A DNA stretch of 26,276 nucleotides from a virus (IMGVR_UViG_3300017786_000112:1-26276), one strand, 5' to 3'; positions 5,172 through 26,148 are shown, counted from the stretch's first letter. Notes: generated from the sequence alone by a model not told the origin. Made by a program: numbers and translations.

Positions 5172-6671
5172 CTAATAATACTCTCTTGCTCTACGAGGAA
5201 ACCAATCTTCCGGAATCTCCTCACCTTGTAAACTAATAAACCCGCCTTGTCTAAATCTCATTAATGCCATAGTCATACTATCACAATAGTCATCATGATC
5301 GCCATTCGGAAATGAAGCAACCTCTTCTATAACCTCGTCAGCAAACTTTTCATCAGGATACCACACTTTTCCAGATTCGAAAATAGGCGACACAATATGC
5401 ATCCTTGTCGTTTTATCTAAGTTACCCCCTCGCCTTCTTCCTGGACTAAATGTCGTAACAGGTAAATTAATTAATCTTAATTCATCAGCCAAAGGTTGTC
5501 CACTCGCTTTTGCCTCAATCAACATCATGTCCGGTTCCCAGTATTCATTCTGCTCAACAGCAATCTCCTTTAACTCCGGAAAATTCCAACGACCCTTAAC
5601 AGCGTCAAGTAATATAATATGCTGCTCACCATTCTCCTTCGGCTCAAATATACCCCAAGTCGTTATCGCACTATAGTCAGCCGTCTCCTTCTTACTGTAA
5701 GCCGTATCATAACTCTGAATTATATAGTCCAATCGTGGCGTGTCCTCTCGTTCCCATAAATTCCACCACTCACGCTTGACCATGGCAACTTCGTCAGAAG
5801 TCGGATCTTGTTGCCACTGAGCATTCCACTTGCCGGGGGACAATGAAGCCTTGACCTTTAATAACTCTTCCTTCTTCCAGAACTCATGCCACAATGGTTC
5901 CCCCGATGGTAGGATGGCAGGAAACTCAACCATTTCCCACTGATCAGCCATAGTGTCTTTCGCTTGAGCTTGTAATAAACGACCCGTCAAATCTTTCTTC
6001 GACCATCTGGTTTGCACAATTATTATGGTACCCCCCGGTTGAAGTCTTTGACGAGGACCAGACGTATACCATTCATAGGCAGTATCATACGCACTTGTAG
6101 ATAACGCATCTTGCTCGGAATGTGGATCATCAATAATTAATAAATCAGCACCACGACCTGTCATTGCAGCACCCACCCCGGCTGCAAAATATTCCCCGCC
6201 TGCACTAGTCTCCCAACGACCTGCTGCTTGGCTATCCTGTTTCAAGTCCGTGTTGGGGAAGATCTCAGCATATATGGGATCCGCAATGAGATCTCGGACT
6301 TTCCTACCAAACCTTACAGCAAGTTCAGTATTCATGGTAGCCTGTATTATTTTTAATTTAGGATTACGCCCCAAAAACCAAGAAGGCATTAAATAGGATG
6401 CAAATTCAGACTTAGAATGTCTGGGGGGCATGTTTACAATAAGTCTTTTCAACTTACCTTGAGCAATAGCTTCCAATTTTTCTGCGATAATTCCGTGATG
6501 TCTACCCTCTATAAAACCATCATACACATGTTTTGCGTATGCCATAAACTTCTCACGAGCTATATCACGAGTCTCAAGTTTTTTCTTTTGCTCCTCCAGT
6601 AACAAGAGTTCTTTAAGAACCTCGTCTGGAAGGGTTTGTAAATTAACTGACATATCCGAACGATAATACAT
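5172..6671 (-). CDS. terL: Terminase large subunit (ATPase/nuclease)
   Basis: 499-aa TerL, the motor that pumps DNA into the prohead and cuts the concatemer. The N-terminal ATPase shows a degenerate Walker A (PPRHSKSE, about 82-89), Walker B with catalytic acid region (ADLLIIDDPHSE, about 175-186) and a coupling motif (VQTRWS, about 219-224). The C-terminal RuvC-like nuclease shows IIQSYDTAYS (Asp near 322), LIEAKASGQPL and a late HDDYCDSM acidic cluster. Length is typical. Two in-frame starts are possible: M1 at 6671 or M7 (MSVNLQTL, 6653); neither has a strong Shine-Dalgarno. It is the first gene of the leftward operon. Confidence 0.93.
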   Translation of the reverse strand: MYYRSDMSVNLQTLPDEVLKELLLLEEQKKKLETRDIAREKFMAYAKHVYDGFIEGRHHGIIAEKLEAIAQGKLKRLIVNMPPRHSKSEFASYLMPSWFLGRNPKLKIIQATMNTELAVRFGRKVRDLIADPIYAEIFPNTDLKQDSQAAGRWETSAGGEYFAAGVGAAMTGRGADLLIIDDPHSEQDALSTSAYDTAYEWYTSGPRQRLQPGGTIIIVQTRWSKKDLTGRLLQAQAKDTMADQWEMVEFPAILPSGEPLWHEFWKKEELLKVKASLSPGKWNAQWQQDPTSDEVAMVKREWWNLWEREDTPRLDYIIQSYDTAYSKKETADYSAITTWGIFEPKENGEQHIILLDAVKGRWNFPELKEIAVEQNEYWEPDMMLIEAKASGQPLADELRLINLPVTTFSPGRRRGGNLDKTTRMHIVSPIFESGKVWYPDEKFADEVIEEVASFPNGDHDDYCDSMTMALMRFRQGGFISLQGEEIPEDWFPRRAREYY

Positions 6672-6795: not shown

Positions 6796-6837
6796 GTTAA
6801 CATGTTAACAAAACGGTCATAGTTAACATGTTAACTA
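6796..6837. repeat. Paired palindromes GTTAACATGTTAAC (copies 1 and 2)
   Basis: Copy 1 is 6796-6809. Copy 2 is 6822-6835 and extends to an 18-bp perfect palindrome TAGTTAACATGTTAACTA (6820-6837). Centres are 26 bp apart, with AAAACGGTCAT between them. Each is a perfect inverted repeat, as expected for a dimeric repressor or activator site. They lie in the divergent region between the packaging and early operons, a natural place to control both. Confidence 0.8.
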
Positions 6838-6869
6838 GTTTGTTCCTGTTTCGTTCTTTTATTTATTTG

Positions 6870-6884
6870 CTTAACATTGTTAAG
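6870..6884. repeat. Spaced palindrome variant CTTAACATTGTTAAG
   Basis: Inverted repeat CTTAACA-T-TGTTAAG. The arms match the CTTAACATGTTAAG variant of the family, with one extra central base. About 48 bp from copy 2. It may be a weaker or differently read site, or a chance relative in AT-rich DNA. Confidence 0.5.
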
Positions 6885-6932
6885 TATTTTATGTGCTGTA
6901 AGTCTTTGATTTTATTATGTTTTATTTGCCGC

Positions 6933-6961
6933 TTGCAATTAGTTGTGTATTACTTTATTAA
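6933..6961 (+). promoter_or_regulatory. Candidate sigma70-type promoter for the 6993 operon
   Basis: TTGCAA (6933-6938), 17-bp spacer, TATTAA (6956-6961), ending about 31 bp before the ATG. TTGCAATT also occurs upstream of the 8119 and 9806 genes at a similar place after the palindromes, but there a 17-bp-spaced -10 is not clear. Confidence 0.4.
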
Positions 6962-6992
6962 TATAGATATTAACAACGAAGAGGAAAAAACA

Positions 6993-7343
6993 ATGGAAGA
7001 TAAAAAACTAATAGATGCTAGAATAAGAATGCTAGATGCTACCGCTAACGAAGGCACTTATGGAATTGATAGTGCTGAAGATTTAGTTAAGACTTGTTTA
7101 AATCAACAAGTATTTAAAGTTAATCAAAAAAGAGTGCATGAGATTTTAAAGAGAATAGAAGATCATGCTAAAACTTTACGAAAAGAAATAGAAGATAAAG
7201 CAATTGTTAAAGGTAAAGCAAAAAGAGTTGAAACAACACCTTCTTTAACTTTAATAAAAGGTATTCTTCCCGCACTCAAACAAGATCAACCTGATTTGTT
7301 CGAGCTCACAACAAGAAAAATTTTCAAGTGGAATAATGCTTAA
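6993..7343 (+). CDS. Early protein, unknown function (116 aa)
   Basis: First gene of the rightward unit. The start ATG at 6993 follows the strong ribosome site GAAGAGGAAAAAA, which recurs before four other genes of this zone; the longer frame beginning at 6828 lacks one. The protein is soluble, helical and charged: MEDKKLIDARIRMLDATANEG at the start, a Lys/Glu-rich helix in the middle (RVHEILKRIEDHAKTLRKEIEDK), and a C-terminal segment with FELTTRKIFKW. No family recognised. Its location right after the paired palindromes fits an immediate-early regulator or host-takeover protein, but that is inference. Confidence 0.75.
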   Translation: MEDKKLIDARIRMLDATANEGTYGIDSAEDLVKTCLNQQVFKVNQKRVHEILKRIEDHAKTLRKEIEDKAIVKGKAKRVETTPSLTLIKGILPALKQDQPDLFELTTRKIFKWNNA

Positions 7344-7351
7344 CAACAATC

Positions 7352-7374
7352 GAGTGCAGGATAATCCTGCACTC
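7352..7374 (+). other. Intercistronic hairpin
   Basis: Perfect 10-bp stem GAGTGCAGGA / TCCTGCACTC with a TAA loop, between the 6993 gene and the ribosome site of the 7398 gene. No U-run follows, so it is not a standard terminator. It may be an RNA-processing or stability element, or may set relative expression of the two genes. The imperfect relation of its GCAGGA core to the TCGCAGG repeats nearby may be chance. Confidence 0.6.
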
Positions 7375-7397
7375 ATAACAATGAAGAGGAAAAAATA

Positions 7398-7562
7398 ATG
7401 AGCAAACATTTTACAACAAGTGACGGATTTAAAATTGATGGATTTGATAATGCTAACGATTTTACAAAAGCACTTAGAGAATGGGACAAAAAACAAGAGC
7501 ATAAAAGAAAAATGGATATATTAAAAAAGAATAATGAAGAGGAAAAAAACAATGAGAAATAA
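7398..7562 (+). CDS. 54-aa charged peptide, unknown
   Basis: Begins MSKHFTTSDGFKIDGFDNAND and ends in a Lys/Glu/Asn-rich tail. The conserved GAAGAGGAAAAAA ribosome site ends about 2 bases before the ATG, with GAGG eight bases away. The 3' end overlaps the next gene by 11 nt and contains that gene's ribosome site. No membrane span or known motif. Good translation signals support it as real. Confidence 0.65.
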   Translation: MSKHFTTSDGFKIDGFDNANDFTKALREWDKKQEHKRKMDILKKNNEEEKNNEK

Positions 7563-7785
7563 ATTAACATATAAAGAAATACAAAATGAGCATAGATTAG
7601 GACAACAATTAGCAGGTGTAATTTGTTTTCTAGGTGGATTAGGTTTTACTTGGATAGCTTGGAAAATAGGAATTCCATTAGTAAATGATCTATACGAATT
7701 ATCAGCAGTTACATTATTCGGAGCAATTGGAATAACAATAACATTTTGCGGATTAGGTGTAATCTTTAAATATAGAAGTAAATAA
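7552..7785 (+). CDS. Small two-TM membrane protein
   Basis: 77-aa protein from the ATG at 7552. The in-frame ATG at 7534 lies inside the conserved ribosome site (aATGAAGAGG) and is unlikely to be used. Residues about 20-45 (LAGVICFLGGLGFTWIAWKIGIPLV) and 48-72 (SAVTLFGAIGITITFCGLGVIF) are hydrophobic spans, with basic ends. Last gene before a strong terminator. Phage early membrane proteins of this size often act on the host envelope or in superinfection exclusion; no family recognised here. Confidence 0.7.
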   Translation: MRNKLTYKEIQNEHRLGQQLAGVICFLGGLGFTWIAWKIGIPLVNDLYELSAVTLFGAIGITITFCGLGVIFKYRSK

Positions 7786-7800
7786 AACCTTTCCTCCAAG

Positions 7801-7831
7801 AAAAAACCCAGCTTTCGAGCTGGGTTTTTTT
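7801..7831 (+). terminator. Rho-independent terminator after the 6993-7785 operon
   Basis: Stem AAAAAACCCAGCT / AGCTGGGTTTTTT closed by a TTCG tetraloop and ending in seven T. Begins 15 bp after the stop of the two-TM protein gene. Confidence 0.92.
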
Positions 7832-7850
7832 GTGTCTTTTTTTTATAAAA

Positions 7851-7875
7851 CGGTCATGGATCGCAGGACGCAGGG
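7851..7875. repeat. Composite repeat CGGTCAT + CGCAGG units (copy A)
   Basis: CGGTCATGGATCGCAGG followed by ACGCAGG. A closely related block, CGGTCATGAATCGCAGG with further TCGCAGG units, lies at 9015-9045. Each copy sits just after a terminator T-run. Confidence 0.7.
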
Positions 7876-7888
7876 AAAACAATTATTA

Positions 7889-7904
7889 TTTTGGTCGACC
7901 AAAA
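7889..7904. repeat. 16-bp perfect palindrome TTTTGGTCGACCAAAA
   Basis: Perfect inverted repeat 7889-7904, a single copy, between composite repeat A and the 7917 palindrome. A possible protein-binding site. Confidence 0.6.
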
Positions 7905-7916
7905 CAAATAAAAATT

Positions 7917-7934
7917 TAGTTAACATGTTAACTA
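7917..7934. repeat. 18-bp palindrome TAGTTAACATGTTAACTA (copy 3)
   Basis: Identical over 18 bp to copy 2 at 6820-6837. Flanked on the right by the CGGTCAT copies at 7939 and 7952. Confidence 0.8.
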
Positions 7935-8005
7935 CCTACGGTCATTCCCTTCGGTCATGGCTATTGATACGGTCACGCCACCAAAATTTTGTCAAGAAAA
8001 AAATA

Positions 8006-8050
8006 CTTAACATGTTAAGCATAAGGCCAGGAACTAGTTAACATGTTAAT
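8006..8050. repeat. Paired palindromes (copies 4 and 5) upstream of the 8119 gene
   Basis: Copy 4 is CTTAACATGTTAAG (8006-8019), copy 5 GTTAACATGTTAAT (8037-8050), centres 31 bp apart. Copy 5 continues as CGATTGTT, and TTGCAATT follows about 20 bp on. The same order of elements recurs at 9674-9736 before the 9806 gene. Confidence 0.8.
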
Positions 8051-8118
8051 CGATTGTTGTTGTGTTTTGTTGCAATTCATGAAATTATAAATAATCAATT
8101 AATGAAGAGGAAAAAATT

Positions 8119-8883
8119 ATGAATATAAATGAAATTAAAAAATACGTTAAACATACATATAATGTTAATTGTTTACTTGATCGATTTGGAGCAAACACAA
8201 AATTAAAAAAATCTTCAAAAGGTATTTACAACGTGGCGGGCTTGTCACTTATGCCAAGTTTAAAATTTTGTCCAATGTCTTTAATTGCTCAATGTTTTGA
8301 AGAATGTTTAAAGAGTGCAGGAAGAGGCAAGTTTAACAATGTCGTTAAGGCAAGAAATAACAAAAGTAATTTTTATAATAATGATTATGATTTGTTTATT
8401 TACTTGTTAATTCATGAATTAAAATTACATGTTACAAACTGTAAAAAAAATAATGTTAATCCGTCCGCAAGATTAAATGTTTTAAGTGATATACCTTATG
8501 AAAAAACAGAATTATTTAATTTATTTGAAGAAATTTATTTTTATGATTATACGAAACGTGCTAATAGATTAGAGACTTGCAACAAGATTAATAATTATAA
8601 ATTAATGTTTTCTTATTCTGGAGCTTTGGGTTACCAAAAACAAGTTAATCAAGCTTTATTATTTAATAATCCTATTGCGGTAGTATTTAAAAATGAATTT
8701 CCGAAATTCTTTTTAAACCGTCCTGTTTTTAATGGTGATTTATCAGACATTGATAATTCAACAAAAGATAATCATATAATAGGATTAAAAGCAAAAGGTA
8801 GTTTAGCAAAAAATTCTTTTAATGATTTTGTTGTTGATCTTCCTAAAATGACAGATTTTTTAGGAATTCAACAAACCGCATAA
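8119..8883 (+). CDS. GP88-like phage protein with Cys cluster
   Basis: 254-aa protein with ATG eight bases after the GAGG of the conserved GAAGAGGAAAAAA site. The arrangement resembles a phage family often annotated 'gene product 88': an N-terminal 'LSLMPSLKFCPMSLIAQCFEEC' with a CPx6Cx3C cluster (about 42-63), a middle 'RLNVLSDIPYEK' and 'YFYDYTKRANRLE', and late 'AVVFKNEFPKFF...FNGDLSDID...HIIGLKAKG'. The cysteines could hold a metal or Fe-S cluster. Biochemical function is not established. Monocistronic: palindromes upstream, two tandem terminators downstream. Family call is from memory of motif order. Confidence 0.72.
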   Translation: MNINEIKKYVKHTYNVNCLLDRFGANTKLKKSSKGIYNVAGLSLMPSLKFCPMSLIAQCFEECLKSAGRGKFNNVVKARNNKSNFYNNDYDLFIYLLIHELKLHVTNCKKNNVNPSARLNVLSDIPYEKTELFNLFEEIYFYDYTKRANRLETCNKINNYKLMFSYSGALGYQKQVNQALLFNNPIAVVFKNEFPKFFLNRPVFNGDLSDIDNSTKDNHIIGLKAKGSLAKNSFNDFVVDLPKMTDFLGIQQTA

Positions 8884-8899
8884 ATTAAAAATTGACAAC

Positions 8900-8934
8900 A
8901 AACCCAGATCATGATTTTATGATCTGGGTTTTTT
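8900..8934 (+). terminator. Rho-independent terminator 1 after the 8119 gene
   Basis: 13-bp stem AAACCCAGATCAT / ATGATCTGGGTTT, loop GATTTT, T-run to 8934. 16 bp after the stop codon. Confidence 0.92.
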
Positions 8935-8963
8935 ATTTACAGGAATTAAAAATCTCACTCAAT

Positions 8964-9004
8964 AAATCCGCAGGTGTTCCTCCCCTTCCTGCGGATTTTT
9001 TTTT
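8964..9004 (+). terminator. Rho-independent terminator 2 (tandem, possibly bidirectional)
   Basis: 11-bp stem AAATCCGCAGG / CCTGCGGATTT, 13-nt loop, nine T at the 3' end. It lies between the 8119 gene and the 3' end of the minus-strand nuclease gene, so it may also stop leftward transcription, although the leftward T-run is shorter. Confidence 0.88.
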
Positions 9005-9014
9005 CAAAAATCTA

Positions 9015-9046
9015 CGGTCATGAATCGCAGGTCGCAGGTCGCAGGA
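9015..9046. repeat. Composite repeat CGGTCAT + TCGCAGG x3 (copy B)
   Basis: CGGTCAT (9015-9021), then three exact tandem copies of TCGCAGG (9025-9045). A further TCGCAGG lies at 9071-9077 within the end of the nuclease gene. Copy A is at 7851-7875. Confidence 0.75.
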
Positions 9047-9049
9047 CAA

Positions 9050-9445
9050 TTATTTTTTATTAGGGGCAAGTCGCAGGATGTGGTATAATATCTCGTCAAA
9101 ATTTTTGCCTTGATATAGACATTTTGCGCCCAAACCCTCAGAGGATAACTCCATAGCCTGACAACCCTCAAATAAATATAGGTCAGAGGTCAAGAGGTGC
9201 TTTACCAAGAAGAAAGATAACCCTTTTGCACGAGAATGCGACAAATTCCAAGCAATTTGAGATGGTCGGACTAAAACTCGGTTGTTTTTTGTTGTTTTTA
9301 ACTCAACAAATACAGATAAACCCTCATGACATAAATATGTGTCAGGTGTTCCACTTGATGCAATTGATTCAATACGTTGATAATGAGTTTTTTTAGGTAA
9401 TTTCAGCTTAAACAATTTAGCTAAATTTTTCTCAGGTGTAGACAT
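9050..9445 (-). CDS. PD-(D/E)XK nuclease, VRR-NUC-like
   Basis: 131-aa protein with the core of VRR-NUC-type nucleases: an early Glu helix (STPEKNLAKLFK), 'SSGTPDTYLCHEGLSVFVELKTTKN' giving the GxPD...ExK catalytic pattern (about 31-52), then 'RPSQIAWNLSHSRAKGLSFFLVKH', the Q-containing helix and last strand. Such phage enzymes cut branched or recombination intermediates. It is the only minus-strand gene in this zone and stands between the composite repeat and the GTTTACAC array. A promoter TTGAAT-N17-TATAGT ends six bases before its ATG, so its mRNA is probably leaderless. Exact subfamily uncertain. Confidence 0.75.
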   Translation of the reverse strand: MSTPEKNLAKLFKLKLPKKTHYQRIESIASSGTPDTYLCHEGLSVFVELKTTKNNRVLVRPSQIAWNLSHSRAKGLSFFLVKHLLTSDLYLFEGCQAMELSSEGLGAKCLYQGKNFDEILYHILRLAPNKK

Positions 9446-9451
9446 AAAACC

Positions 9452-9480
9452 ACTATAGGGATTTTCACAACAGGATTCAA
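9452..9480 (-). promoter_or_regulatory. Promoter of the minus-strand nuclease; leaderless mRNA likely
   Basis: Minus-strand TTGAAT (9480-9475), 17-bp spacer, TATAGT (9457-9452). The ATG begins seven bases after the end of TATAGT, where transcription would normally start. No Shine-Dalgarno sequence is present. Confidence 0.55.
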
Positions 9481-9525
9481 TAATTATTCAAAAACTGCTA
9501 TGTGTCGTTCAGTAATGATTTGAAA

Positions 9526-9610
9526 GTGTGTAAACGTGTAAAAAGTGTGTAAATTATTTGTTACCTGATAAGGGTTTAAGATATGTTTACACGTTTACAC
9601 GTTTACACAC
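9526..9610. repeat. GTTTACAC iteron-like array with long inverted repeat
   Basis: Right part: three exact tandem copies of GTTTACAC (9585-9608) followed by AC. Left part: GTGTGTAAACGTGTAAA (9526-9542), the exact reverse complement of 9594-9610, then GTGTGTAAAT (9545-9554). The 17-bp arms are separated by about 51 bp. The organisation fits an iteron origin or a cooperative operator. The T-rich tract from 9611 onward (CTGTTTTCTC, then AAAATATTTTTAATTTAATT) is AT-rich, as unwinding elements are. Confidence 0.75.
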
Positions 9611-9673
9611 CTGTTTTCTCAAAAATATTTTTAATTTAATTTCCATTGTGAAAACTCCTTATAAGGGCATTTG

Positions 9674-9712
9674 GTTAACATGTTAAGTTCCTGGATTTGT
9701 TAACATGTTAAT
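9674..9712. repeat. Paired palindromes (copies 6 and 7) upstream of the 9806 operon
   Basis: GTTAACATGTTAAG (9674-9687) and GTTAACATGTTAAT (9699-9712), centres 25 bp apart. Copy 7 continues as CGATTGTT and is followed by TTGCAATT at 9729, the same order as at 8037-8077. GTTCCTGGATTT lies between the copies. Confidence 0.8.
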
Positions 9713-9742
9713 CGATTGTTTAGATAAGTTGCAATTAATTGT

Positions 9743-9772
9743 TTACTTATGCTTTTTTATCATTATTATAAT
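9743..9772 (+). promoter_or_regulatory. Candidate promoter of the 9806 operon
   Basis: TTACTT (9743-9748), 18-bp spacer, consensus TATAAT (9767-9772), 33 bp before the ATG. The -35 is weak, so an activator at the upstream palindromes is plausible. Confidence 0.4.
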
Positions 9773-9805: not shown

Positions 9806-10162
9806 ATGAAACATATAAACAGAGATTATTCAGATAATCCATATACTGATCCTAAAAATACTCATCCATCAATTGTTTTAGATGTAGCAATTCCACACAC
9901 ATGGGAATCTGTATCATATAAGAATGATGTTTGTCCTAGTTTTACAGTTAAGAATTTACAGATATTTATTTGTGATGATGAAACAAAAAAACTAGAAGAA
10001 TTACATTTTAAATATTCAGTAATGTATGAAGATGATTATGGATGTGGTTATGACGATTTATTATTAACAGATGATTGGAGTGAGGTTTTATTATTTGTAC
10101 AACTTCATGAGTTTGATAAATGGATTGAGCAACCTAATTATGGAAAAAGGGAGAATTCATAA
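9806..10162 (+). CDS. Early protein, unknown (118 aa)
   Basis: First gene of the long early operon; ribosome site GAAGAGGAAA precedes the ATG by four bases (GAGG eight bases away). The protein is acidic and aromatic, with two Cys near the centre (NDVCPSFTVKNLQIFICDDETKK) and an Asp/Tyr-rich stretch (YEDDYGCGYDDLLLTDDW). No family recognised. The stop overlaps the next start (TAATG). Confidence 0.7.
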   Translation: MKHINRDYSDNPYTDPKNTHPSIVLDVAIPHTWESVSYKNDVCPSFTVKNLQIFICDDETKKLEELHFKYSVMYEDDYGCGYDDLLLTDDWSEVLLFVQLHEFDKWIEQPNYGKRENS

Positions 10163-11249: not shown

Positions 11250-11433
11250 AGTTGATGATTCTGTTTTTGTCTCAAGAGGAGATGAAAATGTTGGTACATT
11301 TAAATACATTGATGATGCTTTATATTTCTTCGACAGTTTTTCTAAAGAATGGGAAGAGTATGATTATAGCTTTAACATTTTAACTAAAAAAGAAATGAAA
11401 CAATTGAAACAAAAATTAAAGGGAGAAAAATAA
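11239..11433 (+). CDS. Early protein, unknown (64 aa)
   Basis: Start at 11239 (MEIKVDDSVFVSRGDENVG) is preferred over the in-frame ATG at 11221, because TTGGAG lies seven bases before it and the longer form would overlap the previous gene by 29 nt. Predicted beta-rich N-terminus (DSVFVS..NVGTFKYID) and Lys-rich C-terminal helix. Ends in a TAATG overlap with the next gene. Confidence 0.68.
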   Translation: MEIKVDDSVFVSRGDENVGTFKYIDDALYFFDSFSKEWEEYDYSFNILTKKEMKQLKQKLKGEK

Positions 11434-16984: not shown

Positions 16985-18433
16985 ATGAAATTTAATTACA
17001 AAACAAAACCATATAAACATCAAGAAGATGCTTTAGTTAAAAGTCATAACAAAAAAAACTATGCATACTTCATGGAAATGGGGTGTGGTAAATCAAAAGT
17101 ACTACTCGATAACATTGCATGGTTATACATGCAAAAAGAAATAGATACGGCAGTAATTGTTGCAACAAAAGGTGTTTACAGAAATTGGGAAGTATCAGAG
17201 ATACCAACTCATTTCCCGGATGTAATTGAAAAGGATGTATATATATGGAGTGCGTCTCCTAATAAAGCACAGGAGAAAGAATTACTTCGTGGTGTGCAGG
17301 ACAGAACAAAGCTTAGAATATTACTAATTAATGTAGAGGGTTTTGCTACACCTAAAGTAAAAAAATATGTACATGCTTTTACACAAAACTCTAAATTTAT
17401 GGTAGCCGTGGATGAATCAACAACCATAAAAAATCTAAAAGCTAAAAGAACTAAAGCTTTGATTTCATTTGGACAGAAGGCAACATATAAGAGAATACTC
17501 ACAGGATCTCCTGTTACTAAATCTCCCTTAGATTTGTTTTCTCAATGTTCTTTTATGAGTAATCAATTGTTAGGGTTTGCATCTTATTTTGCCTTTCAAG
17601 GTAGATATGCAGTCACTAGAACACAGAAGATGGGAGCACATTCTTTTCAACAGATCATTGGTTACAGGAACCTGGAAGAATTATCAAATAAACTAAATAC
17701 TTTTTCTTTTAGAGTTACAAAAGATCAAGCATTAGATTTACCACCGAAAATATATACAACTAGACAAGTTAGTTTATCAACGGAACAACTTCAGCATTAC
17801 ACATCATTAAAAAAGAATGCCGTGACAATGATCGATGATGAATTGATATCAGCGACAGAAGTAATGACACAATTGCTTAGACTCCAACAGGTGTTATGTG
17901 GCTATCTAAAAACAGATGATGGAAACATAATCGATATAAAGAATAATCGTATGGATGCTTTGTTTGAAACGATTGAAGAGATGGATGGTAAAGTAATTAT
18001 ATGGTCAAGGTTTAGAAGAGACATAATAAATATTACTGCTAAACTTGCCAAGAAGAATGGACAGGGGTCAGTTGTCAGTTTTTTCGGGGACACATCAGAT
18101 GCGGATAGAAAATCAGCGGTTCAAAACTTTCAATTTGGAGATGCAAGATTCTTCGTAGCCAATCCACAAACCGCAGGTTTTGGTCTGACTTTGACCGCAG
18201 CGACAAATGTTATTTATTATGCAAACGATTTTAATTTAGAAACTAGAATACAGTCAGAGGACAGATGTCATAGAATAGGTCAAAAGAAATCTGTGACTTA
18301 TGTTGATTTACTTTGTAAGGGGACGATTGACGAGTACATAGTTAAATCGTTGAAGGCTAAGATCAACCTTGCGAGTGCCTCATTGAACGAAGAAGTGAGG
18401 AAGTGGTTAGATCTGAGTCCGAAAAAGGTTTAA
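16985..18433 (+). CDS. SNF2-like SF2 helicase/translocase
   Basis: 482 aa. Q-like start KPYKHQEDAL, Walker A MGCGKS (32-37), motif Ia IVATKG, motif II VDESTTIKN (142-150, DEST in place of DEAH), motif III LTGSPVTKSPLDLFSQ (172-), RecA2 with VIIWSRFRRD, FFVANPQTAGFGLTLTAATNVIYY and motif VI EDRCHRIGQKKSVTYVDLL (about 423-441). This is the short SNF2 form common in phages; it moves on double-stranded DNA, perhaps remodelling forks or displacing proteins. AAGGGGAAG before the start. The last 71 bp overlap the convergent nuclease gene. Confidence 0.9.
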   Translation: MKFNYKTKPYKHQEDALVKSHNKKNYAYFMEMGCGKSKVLLDNIAWLYMQKEIDTAVIVATKGVYRNWEVSEIPTHFPDVIEKDVYIWSASPNKAQEKELLRGVQDRTKLRILLINVEGFATPKVKKYVHAFTQNSKFMVAVDESTTIKNLKAKRTKALISFGQKATYKRILTGSPVTKSPLDLFSQCSFMSNQLLGFASYFAFQGRYAVTRTQKMGAHSFQQIIGYRNLEELSNKLNTFSFRVTKDQALDLPPKIYTTRQVSLSTEQLQHYTSLKKNAVTMIDDELISATEVMTQLLRLQQVLCGYLKTDDGNIIDIKNNRMDALFETIEEMDGKVIIWSRFRRDIINITAKLAKKNGQGSVVSFFGDTSDADRKSAVQNFQFGDARFFVANPQTAGFGLTLTAATNVIYYANDFNLETRIQSEDRCHRIGQKKSVTYVDLLCKGTIDEYIVKSLKAKINLASASLNEEVRKWLDLSPKKV

Positions 18434-18728
18434 GAGAAAATTGATTGGGATGTAGTTCTACTCTTTTTGTTTCTATATCCACATAAAGCAGTCGCACTCC
18501 TAGACCTAATTGTTTTGATGTTAATTTTCTAGAAATAACAGAATTATCTTTTCTTCGACCTACTTTCTTAACGTCAAAGTAAAACCATTGATTACCACTT
18601 GATAAAGCAATTACGTCCACAGGACCTTGTTCAACGAAAGGAGCATAAACGTAACAACCTTGAGATAACAACCATTCGGCTGCAATGAGTTCGCATCTCT
18701 TACCAAAACTATTTCTTATATCTAACAT
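18363..18728 (-). CDS. PD-(D/E)XK endonuclease
   Basis: 121 aa, leftward and convergent with the SNF2-like gene. FGKRCELIAAEWLLSQGCYVYAPF (Glu helix and strand), then 'QGPVDVIALSSGNQWFYFDVKKVGRR' gives the core D..DxK pattern (about 36-58) of archaeal-Hjc/phage group-I-intron-type PD-(D/E)XK nucleases. A Lys/Leu-rich segment and strand follow (LGLGVRLLYVDIET). Probably a Holliday-junction-type resolvase or a homing-like nuclease. No clear Shine-Dalgarno sequence. Overlap on the opposite strand of the helicase 3' end is notable. Confidence 0.75.
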   Translation of the reverse strand: MLDIRNSFGKRCELIAAEWLLSQGCYVYAPFVEQGPVDVIALSSGNQWFYFDVKKVGRRKDNSVISRKLTSKQLGLGVRLLYVDIETKRVELHPNQFSLKPFSDSDLTTSSLLRSMRHSQG

Positions 18729-24054: not shown

Positions 24055-25951
24055 TAATCATCAATATCATTTATTGGAACAGGACATTGGAGATATAGCT
24101 TGGGGTAAATCAGATTCAGATTGGTCGCCCCCTAATACATTTCCTGATCTTACAAAAGCTACACGAATTGCTGTTGACTTAGAAACAAAAGATCCGAATT
24201 TAATTAAGCTTGGACCTGGTTGGTGTAGAAATGATGGACATATAATTGGTGTTGCAGTTGCTGCAGGAGAGTTTCATGGATACTATCCTATTCGTCATGC
24301 AGCAGGAAACATGGATAAACGTATTGTTTTCAATTGGTTAAAGAAACAAATGGCTACACCTAATATACCAAAAGTATTTCATAATGCTATGTATGATCTT
24401 GGTTGGTTAAGAGCAGAAGGTATAGAAGTACAAGGTAAAATAATAGATACCATGATTGCTGCTCCTTTAGTTGATGAGAATAGAAGATTTTATAACTTAA
24501 ATTCTTTAGCTAAAGATTATTTAAATGAATCTAAAAGCGAAAAAATATTGAGAGCTGCCGCAGAAGAATTTGGAATAGATCCAAAATCTGAAATGTACAA
24601 ACTTCCTTCACGATATGTTGGTGCTTATGCAGAACAAGATGCAGCTGTGACATTACGATTATATGATCATTTAAGCATTAAATTAGAAAAAGAAGAATGT
24701 ACATCTATTTTTGAATTAGAGTCTAATCTGCTTCCTGTTATTTTTGAAATGAAAACAAGAGGGGTAAGAGTTGATGTTGACAAAGCCGAACAAGTTAAGA
24801 AGTTAATGGCTAAAGAAGAAAAGAATTTACTTCAAGAGATATTCAAAGATACCGGGACTATGATTGAACCTTGGGTCGCCACATCTATAGCAAAGACCTT
24901 CGACTTTCTTGGGTTGGAGTATTCTCGCACAGAAAAGTCTGGGTCGCCCATGTTCACAAAACAATTTTTGACGAATCATCCTCATCCCATTGCGAATAAA
25001 ATTGCGAAGATAAGAGAACTTAACAAAGCTAATACAACCTTTGTTGAAACTATTCTTAATCATGCTCATAACGGTAGAATACATTGTGACTTTCATCCTT
25101 TGAGAACTGACGATGGTGGTACTGTAACAGGTAGATTTAGTTCTAGCAATCCGAATTTGCAGCAAATTCCTGCAAGAGATCCGGATATTAAAAAAGCAAT
25201 CAGAGGATTATTTATTCCAGAAGAGGGAACCAAATGGGGGTCATTTGACTATGCTTCGCAAGAACCTAGATGGTTGGCTCATTACTGTGCTAATTCAACA
25301 GGGGATTTACGACATCCGTTAATTGACGATGTTGTAGAGATGTATAAAGAAGGTAAAGCAGACTTCCATCAAATGGTAGCCGACATGGCAAATATAAACA
25401 GGAAAGAAGCTAAGACAGTTAATCTTGGAATTATGTATGGTATGGGTAAAAAGAAACTTGCGGATACCTTATCTATTACTGAAGACGAGGCGGTAGCCTT
25501 ATTAGAAAAATACAATGAGAAAGTTCCTTTTGTTAGAGATTTAGCTAACAGGGTTTCTACTCACGCATCAAACAAAGGTGCGATAAGAACTCAGCTTGGA
25601 AGAAAATGTAGATTTGATATGTGGGAGCCTAGGGGATTTGGTTATAAAAAAGCATTGCCGATGAAAGAGGCTATAAAGCAATATCAGAATGTAAAGAGAG
25701 CATTTACATACAAAGCTTTGAATAGATTGATTCAAGGATCTAGTGCCGACCAAACTAAAAAGGCAATGGTCGATTGTCATGCGGCAGGTCTTACACCTAC
25801 ATTAACAGTCCACGATGAATTATGTTTCAACATTGAAAATCAGGAACAGGCAGACAAGATCGTTGATATCATGTCCAACTGTGTTCCTGATCTAAACGTA
25901 CCTTTTGAAGTTGATGCAGAACTTGGCAACAATTGGGGCGAGGTCGGTTAG
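24041..25951 (+). CDS. polA-like: Family A DNA polymerase with 3'-5' exonuclease
   Basis: 636 aa; GGAG nine bases before the ATG. Exonuclease domain about 40-215: Exo I D46/E48, Exo II FHNAMYD (N115, D119), Exo III Y196-D200. Polymerase domain: motif A WGSFDYASQEPR (D403), motif B R454-K458-L462-Y466 in NRKEAKTVNLGIMYG, motif C TVHDE (591-593). No 5'-3' exonuclease domain. At the E. coli F762 position it has Leu (L462), a variant tied in phage surveys to slower, sometimes temperate, replication. Main replicase of the phage. The end overlaps the convergent DUF1127 gene by 4 nt. Confidence 0.95.
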   Translation: MTKIDNHQYHLLEQDIGDIAWGKSDSDWSPPNTFPDLTKATRIAVDLETKDPNLIKLGPGWCRNDGHIIGVAVAAGEFHGYYPIRHAAGNMDKRIVFNWLKKQMATPNIPKVFHNAMYDLGWLRAEGIEVQGKIIDTMIAAPLVDENRRFYNLNSLAKDYLNESKSEKILRAAAEEFGIDPKSEMYKLPSRYVGAYAEQDAAVTLRLYDHLSIKLEKEECTSIFELESNLLPVIFEMKTRGVRVDVDKAEQVKKLMAKEEKNLLQEIFKDTGTMIEPWVATSIAKTFDFLGLEYSRTEKSGSPMFTKQFLTNHPHPIANKIAKIRELNKANTTFVETILNHAHNGRIHCDFHPLRTDDGGTVTGRFSSSNPNLQQIPARDPDIKKAIRGLFIPEEGTKWGSFDYASQEPRWLAHYCANSTGDLRHPLIDDVVEMYKEGKADFHQMVADMANINRKEAKTVNLGIMYGMGKKKLADTLSITEDEAVALLEKYNEKVPFVRDLANRVSTHASNKGAIRTQLGRKCRFDMWEPRGFGYKKALPMKEAIKQYQNVKRAFTYKALNRLIQGSSADQTKKAMVDCHAAGLTPTLTVHDELCFNIENQEQADKIVDIMSNCVPDLNVPFEVDAELGNNWGEVG

Positions 25952-26148
25952 TAAGTAGACTTTGCGTACAAATCATGTAGTTCTGACATAGGATCATCTA
26001 CAGGTTTTTCTTTTTCAAAAATTTCATATGCATGAGATCTAATATTTGATCTATGTATTCCTATGTCCTTTAGTGTGGCATCATCCAAACTATGTAAAGC
26101 TGTAATTGTTCTTCCTATCTTAAATTTATAAAACCAATTTGATAACAT
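25948..26148 (-). CDS. DUF1127 protein
   Basis: 66 aa, leftward; AAGGA eight bases before the ATG. The core 'ITALHSLDDATLKDIGIHRSNIRSHA' is the DUF1127 (YjiS) motif. Such small Arg-rich proteins are common in Alphaproteobacteria, where some bind RNA or affect stress and phosphate control; here the Arg content is modest. It extends about 20 residues past the motif. A host-derived auxiliary gene in a phage is the likely reading. Convergent with the polymerase (4-nt overlap). Confidence 0.8.
   Translation of the reverse strand: MLSNWFYKFKIGRTITALHSLDDATLKDIGIHRSNIRSHAYEIFEKEKPVDDPMSELHDLYAKSTY

Follow-up and report, generated by a model that had tools for sequence, protein, structure and literature searches.

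A strictly conserved, promoter-linked palindrome in a group of phages related to pelagiphages, and its candidate ribbon-helix-helix binder

Introduction

The Ogr and Delta proteins of phages P2 and P4 are small zinc-finger proteins that activate several late promoters through a dyad near -55. Most of the known ribbon-helix-helix (RHH) proteins are repressors, Arc, Mnt and CopG among them. These three act at sites that overlap their promoters, and Arc contacts DNA through Gln9, Asn11 and Arg13. The phage Mu activator Mor has its site at the middle promoter Pm; the site has its centre at -43.5 and takes the place of the -35 element (PMC4390567). The host regulator CRP is productive as a class I activator from -61.5, -71.5/-72.5 and -82.5, with a periodicity of about 10.5 bp (PMC6301791).

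Phage HTVC027P, a relative by terL of the virus described here, lacks an RNA polymerase and reportedly depends on the host enzyme throughout infection (PMC12753301). A phage with this dependence must time its genes by other means. In the 2025 transcriptome of HTVC027P the early genes were all of unknown function, and the initiation of phage transcription was left open (PMC12753301). The window analysed here, meaning the whole stretch of 26,276 bases, is an IMG/VR virus record and is probably incomplete. Its terL has 60% identity to those of phage DSL-LC04 and Pelagibacter phage HTVC027P, and its genes include polA, a primase, a UvrD-like helicase, a portal protein and TerS.

Results

The palindrome and its copies in the window

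The window contains seven perfect copies of the palindrome TTAACATGTTAA (Table 1). Under a first-order Markov model 0.0085 copies would be expected in the window, and a chance origin was ruled out on this basis. The other perfect 12-bp palindromes of the window occur once each, and the single one-mismatch copy of TTAACATGTTAA is at 11372. The first-pass annotation of this DNA had described the same seven-copy family, with coordinates that take in one flanking base; the centre spacings that it gave for the pairs (26, 31 and 25 bp) are correct, and the spaced variant that it placed near 6870 is TTAACATTGTTAA. All seven copies are intergenic, as it had also claimed, and lie among the ORFs starting at 6671 (minus strand), 6993, 8119 and 9806 and not in long coding stretches. 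The second group has a third site in the copy at 7920, which lies about 190 bp ahead of the gene at 8119. The downstream order common to two of the pairs is real, with CGATTGTT and then TTGCAATT following the sites at 8038 and 9700. Duplication of the control module within the window is plausible and, judging from the sequences compared below, cassettes may more broadly have been exchanged between phages.

Table 1. Palindrome copies, predicted promoters and terminators, and genes of the window
Feature	Position	Strand	Remarks
Possible terL promoter TTGGCA, 16 bp, TATAGA	6773 to 6746	-	23 bp from nearest site
TTAACATGTTAA copy 1, terL/e1 divergent region	6797..6808
TTAACATGTTAA copy 2	6823..6834
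Spaced variant TTAACATTGTTAA	6871..6883		Kept in close relatives L032, L061 (one change) and L007
Candidate e1 promoter TTGCAA, 17 bp, TATTAA	6933..6961	+	49 bp past variant site; weak alone
e1, 116 aa	6993..7343	+	Homologues (34-44%) only in site-bearing relatives
Intrinsic terminator, end of first unit	7800..7831	+
TTAACATGTTAA copy 3	7920..7931
TTAACATGTTAA copy 4	8007..8018
TTAACATGTTAA copy 5	8038..8049		Candidate TTGTGT box begins 10 bp further on (8060)
GP88-family protein (PF17338), 254 aa	8119..8883	+
Intrinsic terminator, end of second unit	8900..8931	+
TTAACATGTTAA copy 6	9675..9686
TTAACATGTTAA copy 7	9700..9711		Centre about -71 relative to inferred start
Third-unit promoter TTTACT, 16 bp, TATTAT	9742..9769	+	30 bp past copy 7
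First gene of third unit, 118 aa	9806..10162	+
Ribbon-helix-helix (Arc-like) protein, 50 aa	18803..18955	+	Candidate palindrome binder

Conservation among viral contigs

Two copies of TTAACATGTTAA 8-38 bp apart were sought in 2.9 million viral contigs, and 57 stretches had them. Homologues of window genes were present in 49 of these, and the remaining eight had no such homologue or one weak match. On this distribution TTAACATGTTAA is the signature of a phage group. Its site-bearing members have up to ten copies from terL to the TerS or nuclease genes, plus single copies elsewhere, and a lone copy about 3 kb downstream recurs in several of them. Copies in related phages stay intergenic, a point that the first-pass annotation had left to be checked: ORFs of 80 aa or longer make up 73% of the DNA, yet 186 of the 192 distinct sites fall outside them, and of the other six that in L053 at least is a start-codon artefact. 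The site-bearing phage DNA counted, 139.6 kb, has 35 exact copies and four with one mismatch, about 1.8 of the latter being expected by chance, and 92 kb of siteless relatives had neither exact nor one-mismatch copies. Bacterial operators are not usually so strict in sequence. The sites are real, and they are both strictly conserved and linked to promoters.

Literature searches found no regulatory use of the TTAACATGTTAA palindrome and no RHH work on pelagiphages. Paired TTAACATGTTAA sites also occur in the Marinobacterium stretches L220 and L222 near apparent aromatic-degradation genes, in L222 adjoining a MarR-like protein. Before a gene whose start is weakly RHH-like (E=0.14), the unrelated phages L006 (1518-1575) and L026 have three 25-bp repeats, GTTAACATGTTAATTTTGTTAGTTT, the third of them imperfect. 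The paired sites in L006, L026 and Marinobacterium look like independent uses.

Geometry of the predicted promoters

In the relatives, the DNA downstream of the proximal palindrome has a common layout: first an element of the TTGYAATTA type, then boxes resembling a -35 and a -10 with about 17 bp of spacer between them, and last a ribosome site. Promoters were called automatically on 61 sequences forming 27 clusters, and the gap was measured from the end of the palindrome to the -35. The gaps in the 27 clusters (0, 3, 8, 10, 10, 11, 11, 11, 11, 15, 17, 18, 20, 20, 21, 26, 29, 30, 30, 30, 31, 40, 41, 41, 41, 51 and 51 bp) are mostly 10-11, 20-21, 30-31, 40-41 or 51 bp, with a best period of 10.1. 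For these predicted promoters the Rayleigh R is 0.64 (n=27 clusters, p ~2e-5 versus uniform), clusters being counted as independent when some have common ancestry; R is 0.75 in the 23 clusters scoring at least 14.5. The distance from the -35 to the ATG, used as a control, has no phase (R=0.16 in the 27 clusters and 0.10 in the 23 best). If the spacer is 17 bp, the centre of the palindrome lies at -41.5 minus the gap, giving classes near -52, -62, -72, -82 and -92, and gaps of 20, 31 and 41 bp correspond to centres at -61.5, -72.5 and -82.5, which coincide with productive CRP positions (PMC6301791). CRP does not classically activate from about -52, the position given by the most frequent gap class (10-11 bp). 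The stepping could come partly from expansion of the 10-bp TTGYAATTA unit; the phase is kept where the filler differs from this unit (L020 versus L038, L056 versus L021). Among about 60 promoters, the proximal palindrome never overlapped the called -35, the -10 or the transcribed region.

Within the window, the third-unit promoter is the only clear phased case, and the promoters at 6933 and after 8049 show no clear fit to the phase. A generic promoter scan of the region gave no excess of promoters, so the individual calls are weak. Control of terL through the divergent region, which the first-pass annotation had considered, is not borne out, as the gap of the possible terL promoter is out of phase. 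That annotation had also left the choice between operator and activator of a dimeric protein open; the position of the proximal site, always upstream of the called -35, and the helical phase favour the activator half. At the predicted promoters the geometry is that of a class I activator, and activation is rather the likelier role for the sites.

The RHH protein as candidate binder

The protein encoded at 18803 matches RHH_5 (PF07878) at 28 bits, the cutoff being 26, and no other of the window proteins scanned has a recognised domain of a sequence-specific regulator. Its AlphaFold model (pLDDT 87.6), a monomer, has two helices and no assigned strand, and the best PDB fold matches of the model are Arc, then AmrZ and CopG (E 0.01-0.2). 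Residues Y9, T11 and A13 align with Q9, N11 and R13 of Arc. The gene is syntenic across the group, flanked by a SNF2-like helicase and g185, and there is no TTAACATGTTAA site at the RHH gene itself.

RHH type and sites were compared in distinct contigs holding both the RHH gene and the early region, 18 further Y-T-A loci, which have no sites, lacking that region. Y-T-A at residues 9, 11 and 13 is found in all eight contigs with both the RHH gene and sites; one of these, L148, has TerS and lacks the nuclease and terL. The siteless contigs holding the early region have W-S-A, Y-S-A or F-T-S (16 of 16) and never Y-T-A. RHH type and site presence split once only in the RHH family, in one clade, so the match is explained equally well by shared ancestry of the replication module. 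The e1 protein, the zinc protein at 10162, g55 and g76 are likewise found only in site-bearing genomes.

Upstream motifs vary among the W-S-A phages, in which near-identical RHH proteins are found together with either CCAGCTGG or TGTGACA motifs; a universal RHH-to-operator code has no support within this group. The 50-aa protein, already named in the first-pass annotation, stands as the best candidate for binding TTAACATGTTAA on its match with the sites; this is a correlation within one clade and not proof, and the contig G003, described below, sits uneasily with it.

Siteless relatives and cassette exchange

Absence of the sites from the same places in close relatives, which would speak against a regulon, was found in part: there are siteless phages whose terL is 92-94% identical to that of the window. 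The site trait requires four changes on the terL tree, and together with these relatives this indicates that it is not tied to terL. Nor do the sites track the gene downstream of them, since GP88 identity to the window's protein is 83% in siteless G013 versus 43% in site-bearing G010. Siteless relatives often carry CCAGCTGG pairs or TGTGACA-N4-TGTCACA-like dyads in the same spot.

Over 3.2 kb that take in the promoter, G003 and L124 share 90% identity, and the palindrome pair is present in G003 only, 11 bp before the -35 and with the flank TAAGAAAGTT as in other site-bearing phages. The G003 contig has no RHH gene of its own, and a search for overlapping contigs that might carry it found relatives only. 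Those at both ends of G003 have W-S-A RHH proteins, which suggests that the RHH protein of G003 is probably also of a type other than Y-T-A. G003 is the main difficulty for the RHH reading. Cassette exchange before an otherwise conserved promoter, as between G003 and L124, would offer a clean natural system for a change of regulatory specificity in virulent phages.

Other repeats and genes

Upstream of terL, CCAGCTGG pairs replace TTAACATGTTAA in L077, L083, L087, L089, L093 and L094. A second dyad, TGTGACA-N4-TGTCACA or TGTTGCAAAAATGTCACA, occurs in L085 (8697-8967 and 9700-9960), L090 and G003 (18430-18480), and also in some site-bearing phages, for example L009 and L038. The window has an inverted pair of repeat arrays at 9521-9610 (GTGTGTAAACGTGTAAA / TTTACACGTTTACACAC, 100% complementary and 51 nt apart), which is a candidate TerS/pac site or origin; L093, L085 and G003 have a similar architecture in other letters at the equivalent spot by TerS or the nuclease. 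TerS itself (561-1067 in the window) lies beside the portal-side genes, and in many relatives by the nuclease or deeper in the replication side; the differing position is a gene relocation. A DUF1127 protein is phage-encoded at 25948-26148 of the window, and many relatives have one too.

Discussion

We propose that a phage-encoded dimeric protein, most likely the 50-aa RHH protein, binds TTAACATGTTAA ahead of promoters of the ordinary sigma-70 type, centred near -52, -62, -72, -82 or -92, and that the bound protein would activate, in class I fashion and through the host RNA polymerase, small host-takeover units from terL to the replication genes. We give this explanation as a whole about an even chance of being right. 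From the sites and their surroundings we infer the binding, the RHH protein as binder, activation rather than repression, and the timing.

The palindromes might instead be operators of a phage repressor that closes the units later in infection by upstream pairing, looping or contact with RNA polymerase. Sites that are often paired and nearly invariant, as strongly selected operators are, would suit such a protein, and so would the RHH fold, which is that of the repressors Arc, Mnt and CopG. Repression is nevertheless unlikely, because the proximal palindrome leaves the called promoter elements and the transcribed region free and keeps a helical phase to the -35 that is expected for contact activation. 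The binder could also be another clade-restricted phage protein, such as e1, the zinc protein at 10162, g76 or a protein encoded off the contig. The restriction of the three named proteins to site-bearing genomes fits this, as does G003, which probably lacks the matching RHH type; none of the three has a recognised DNA-binding domain, however, and the likeness of the zinc protein is to the zinc domain of DnaJ and not to Ogr. We hold another binder to be somewhat less likely than a repressor.

A host transcription factor, whose regulon the phage would borrow, comes lower in our estimation and seems improbable. It would be there at the onset of infection, and the different motifs that relatives carry in the same spot would then reflect differences between hosts. 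Against it, the Alphaproteobacteria sampled have the site at chance level: TTAACATGTTAA was found three times in 44 small genomes (0.6-1.8 Mb), below the reversed control, and paired sites in one of 190 genomes. A collection of genomes from 84,980 species had paired sites in only 16 stretches, from unrelated taxa. Replication origin, partition or packaging (TerS/pac) sites, of which the first-pass annotation had offered partition or origin as its alternative, are very hard to credit. The copies in relatives do lie mostly between terL and terS or the nuclease, but there are up to ten of them over kilobases, each group stands before its own promoter and in phase with it, and this includes the lone site some 3 kb away; the inverted repeat arrays at 9521-9610 are the better pac or origin candidate.

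If the class I activation proposed here holds, a wider picture can tentatively be drawn, which we regard as possible and more doubtful than the proposal itself. Marine phages that are lytic and encode no RNA polymerase would time early genes by a tiny RHH protein working as a class I activator on the nearly invariant palindromes, and relatives would swap operator cassettes (TTAACATGTTAA, CCAGCTGG or TGTGACA-N4-TGTCACA) ahead of shared promoters and genes. The swapped cassettes would then mark regulatory specificity groups in virulent phages. What the analysis offers for uncultivated relatives is a defined cis code together with a 50-aa candidate for the trans factor. Weak RHH-like ORFs are present in HTVC027P (about 11641), HTVC023P (gp13) and 023Pt_psg01 (10602), and such ORFs in cultured or complete relatives would make tests in culture possible.

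Comparison with known systems

The pelagiphages of the HTVC023P/HTVC027P type are close to the window in terL (53-60% identity), portal (48-49%) and polA (46-52%), and contain no TTAACATGTTAA at all. With Arc, Mnt and CopG the candidate RHH protein shares its fold and an aligned DNA-contact strand; unlike their operators, the sites here lie upstream of the -35 and are nearly invariant. The likeness to CRP is in a palindromic site kept on one helix face in steps of about 10.5 bp. CRP is a host regulator; sites near -52 are also frequent here, and activation is our proposal from the geometry. The Ogr/Delta system resembles the one proposed in using one small phage protein at several promoters with a dyad upstream of the -35, and differs in being a zinc-finger protein at late promoters, where we have early units, several phased distances and an RHH candidate. 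No Ogr-like protein was found among the proteins scanned from this incomplete genome, and the zinc protein at 10162 gave DnaJ and Anti-TRAP matches below the cutoff and no Ogr match. With Mu Mor the proposal from sequence shares a phage-encoded dimer, an upstream inverted repeat and activation of host sigma-70 RNA polymerase; Mor serves one promoter and belongs to a different protein family (PMC4390567). By analogy, the mechanism would be a variation on that of Mor, Ogr and other known phage activators.
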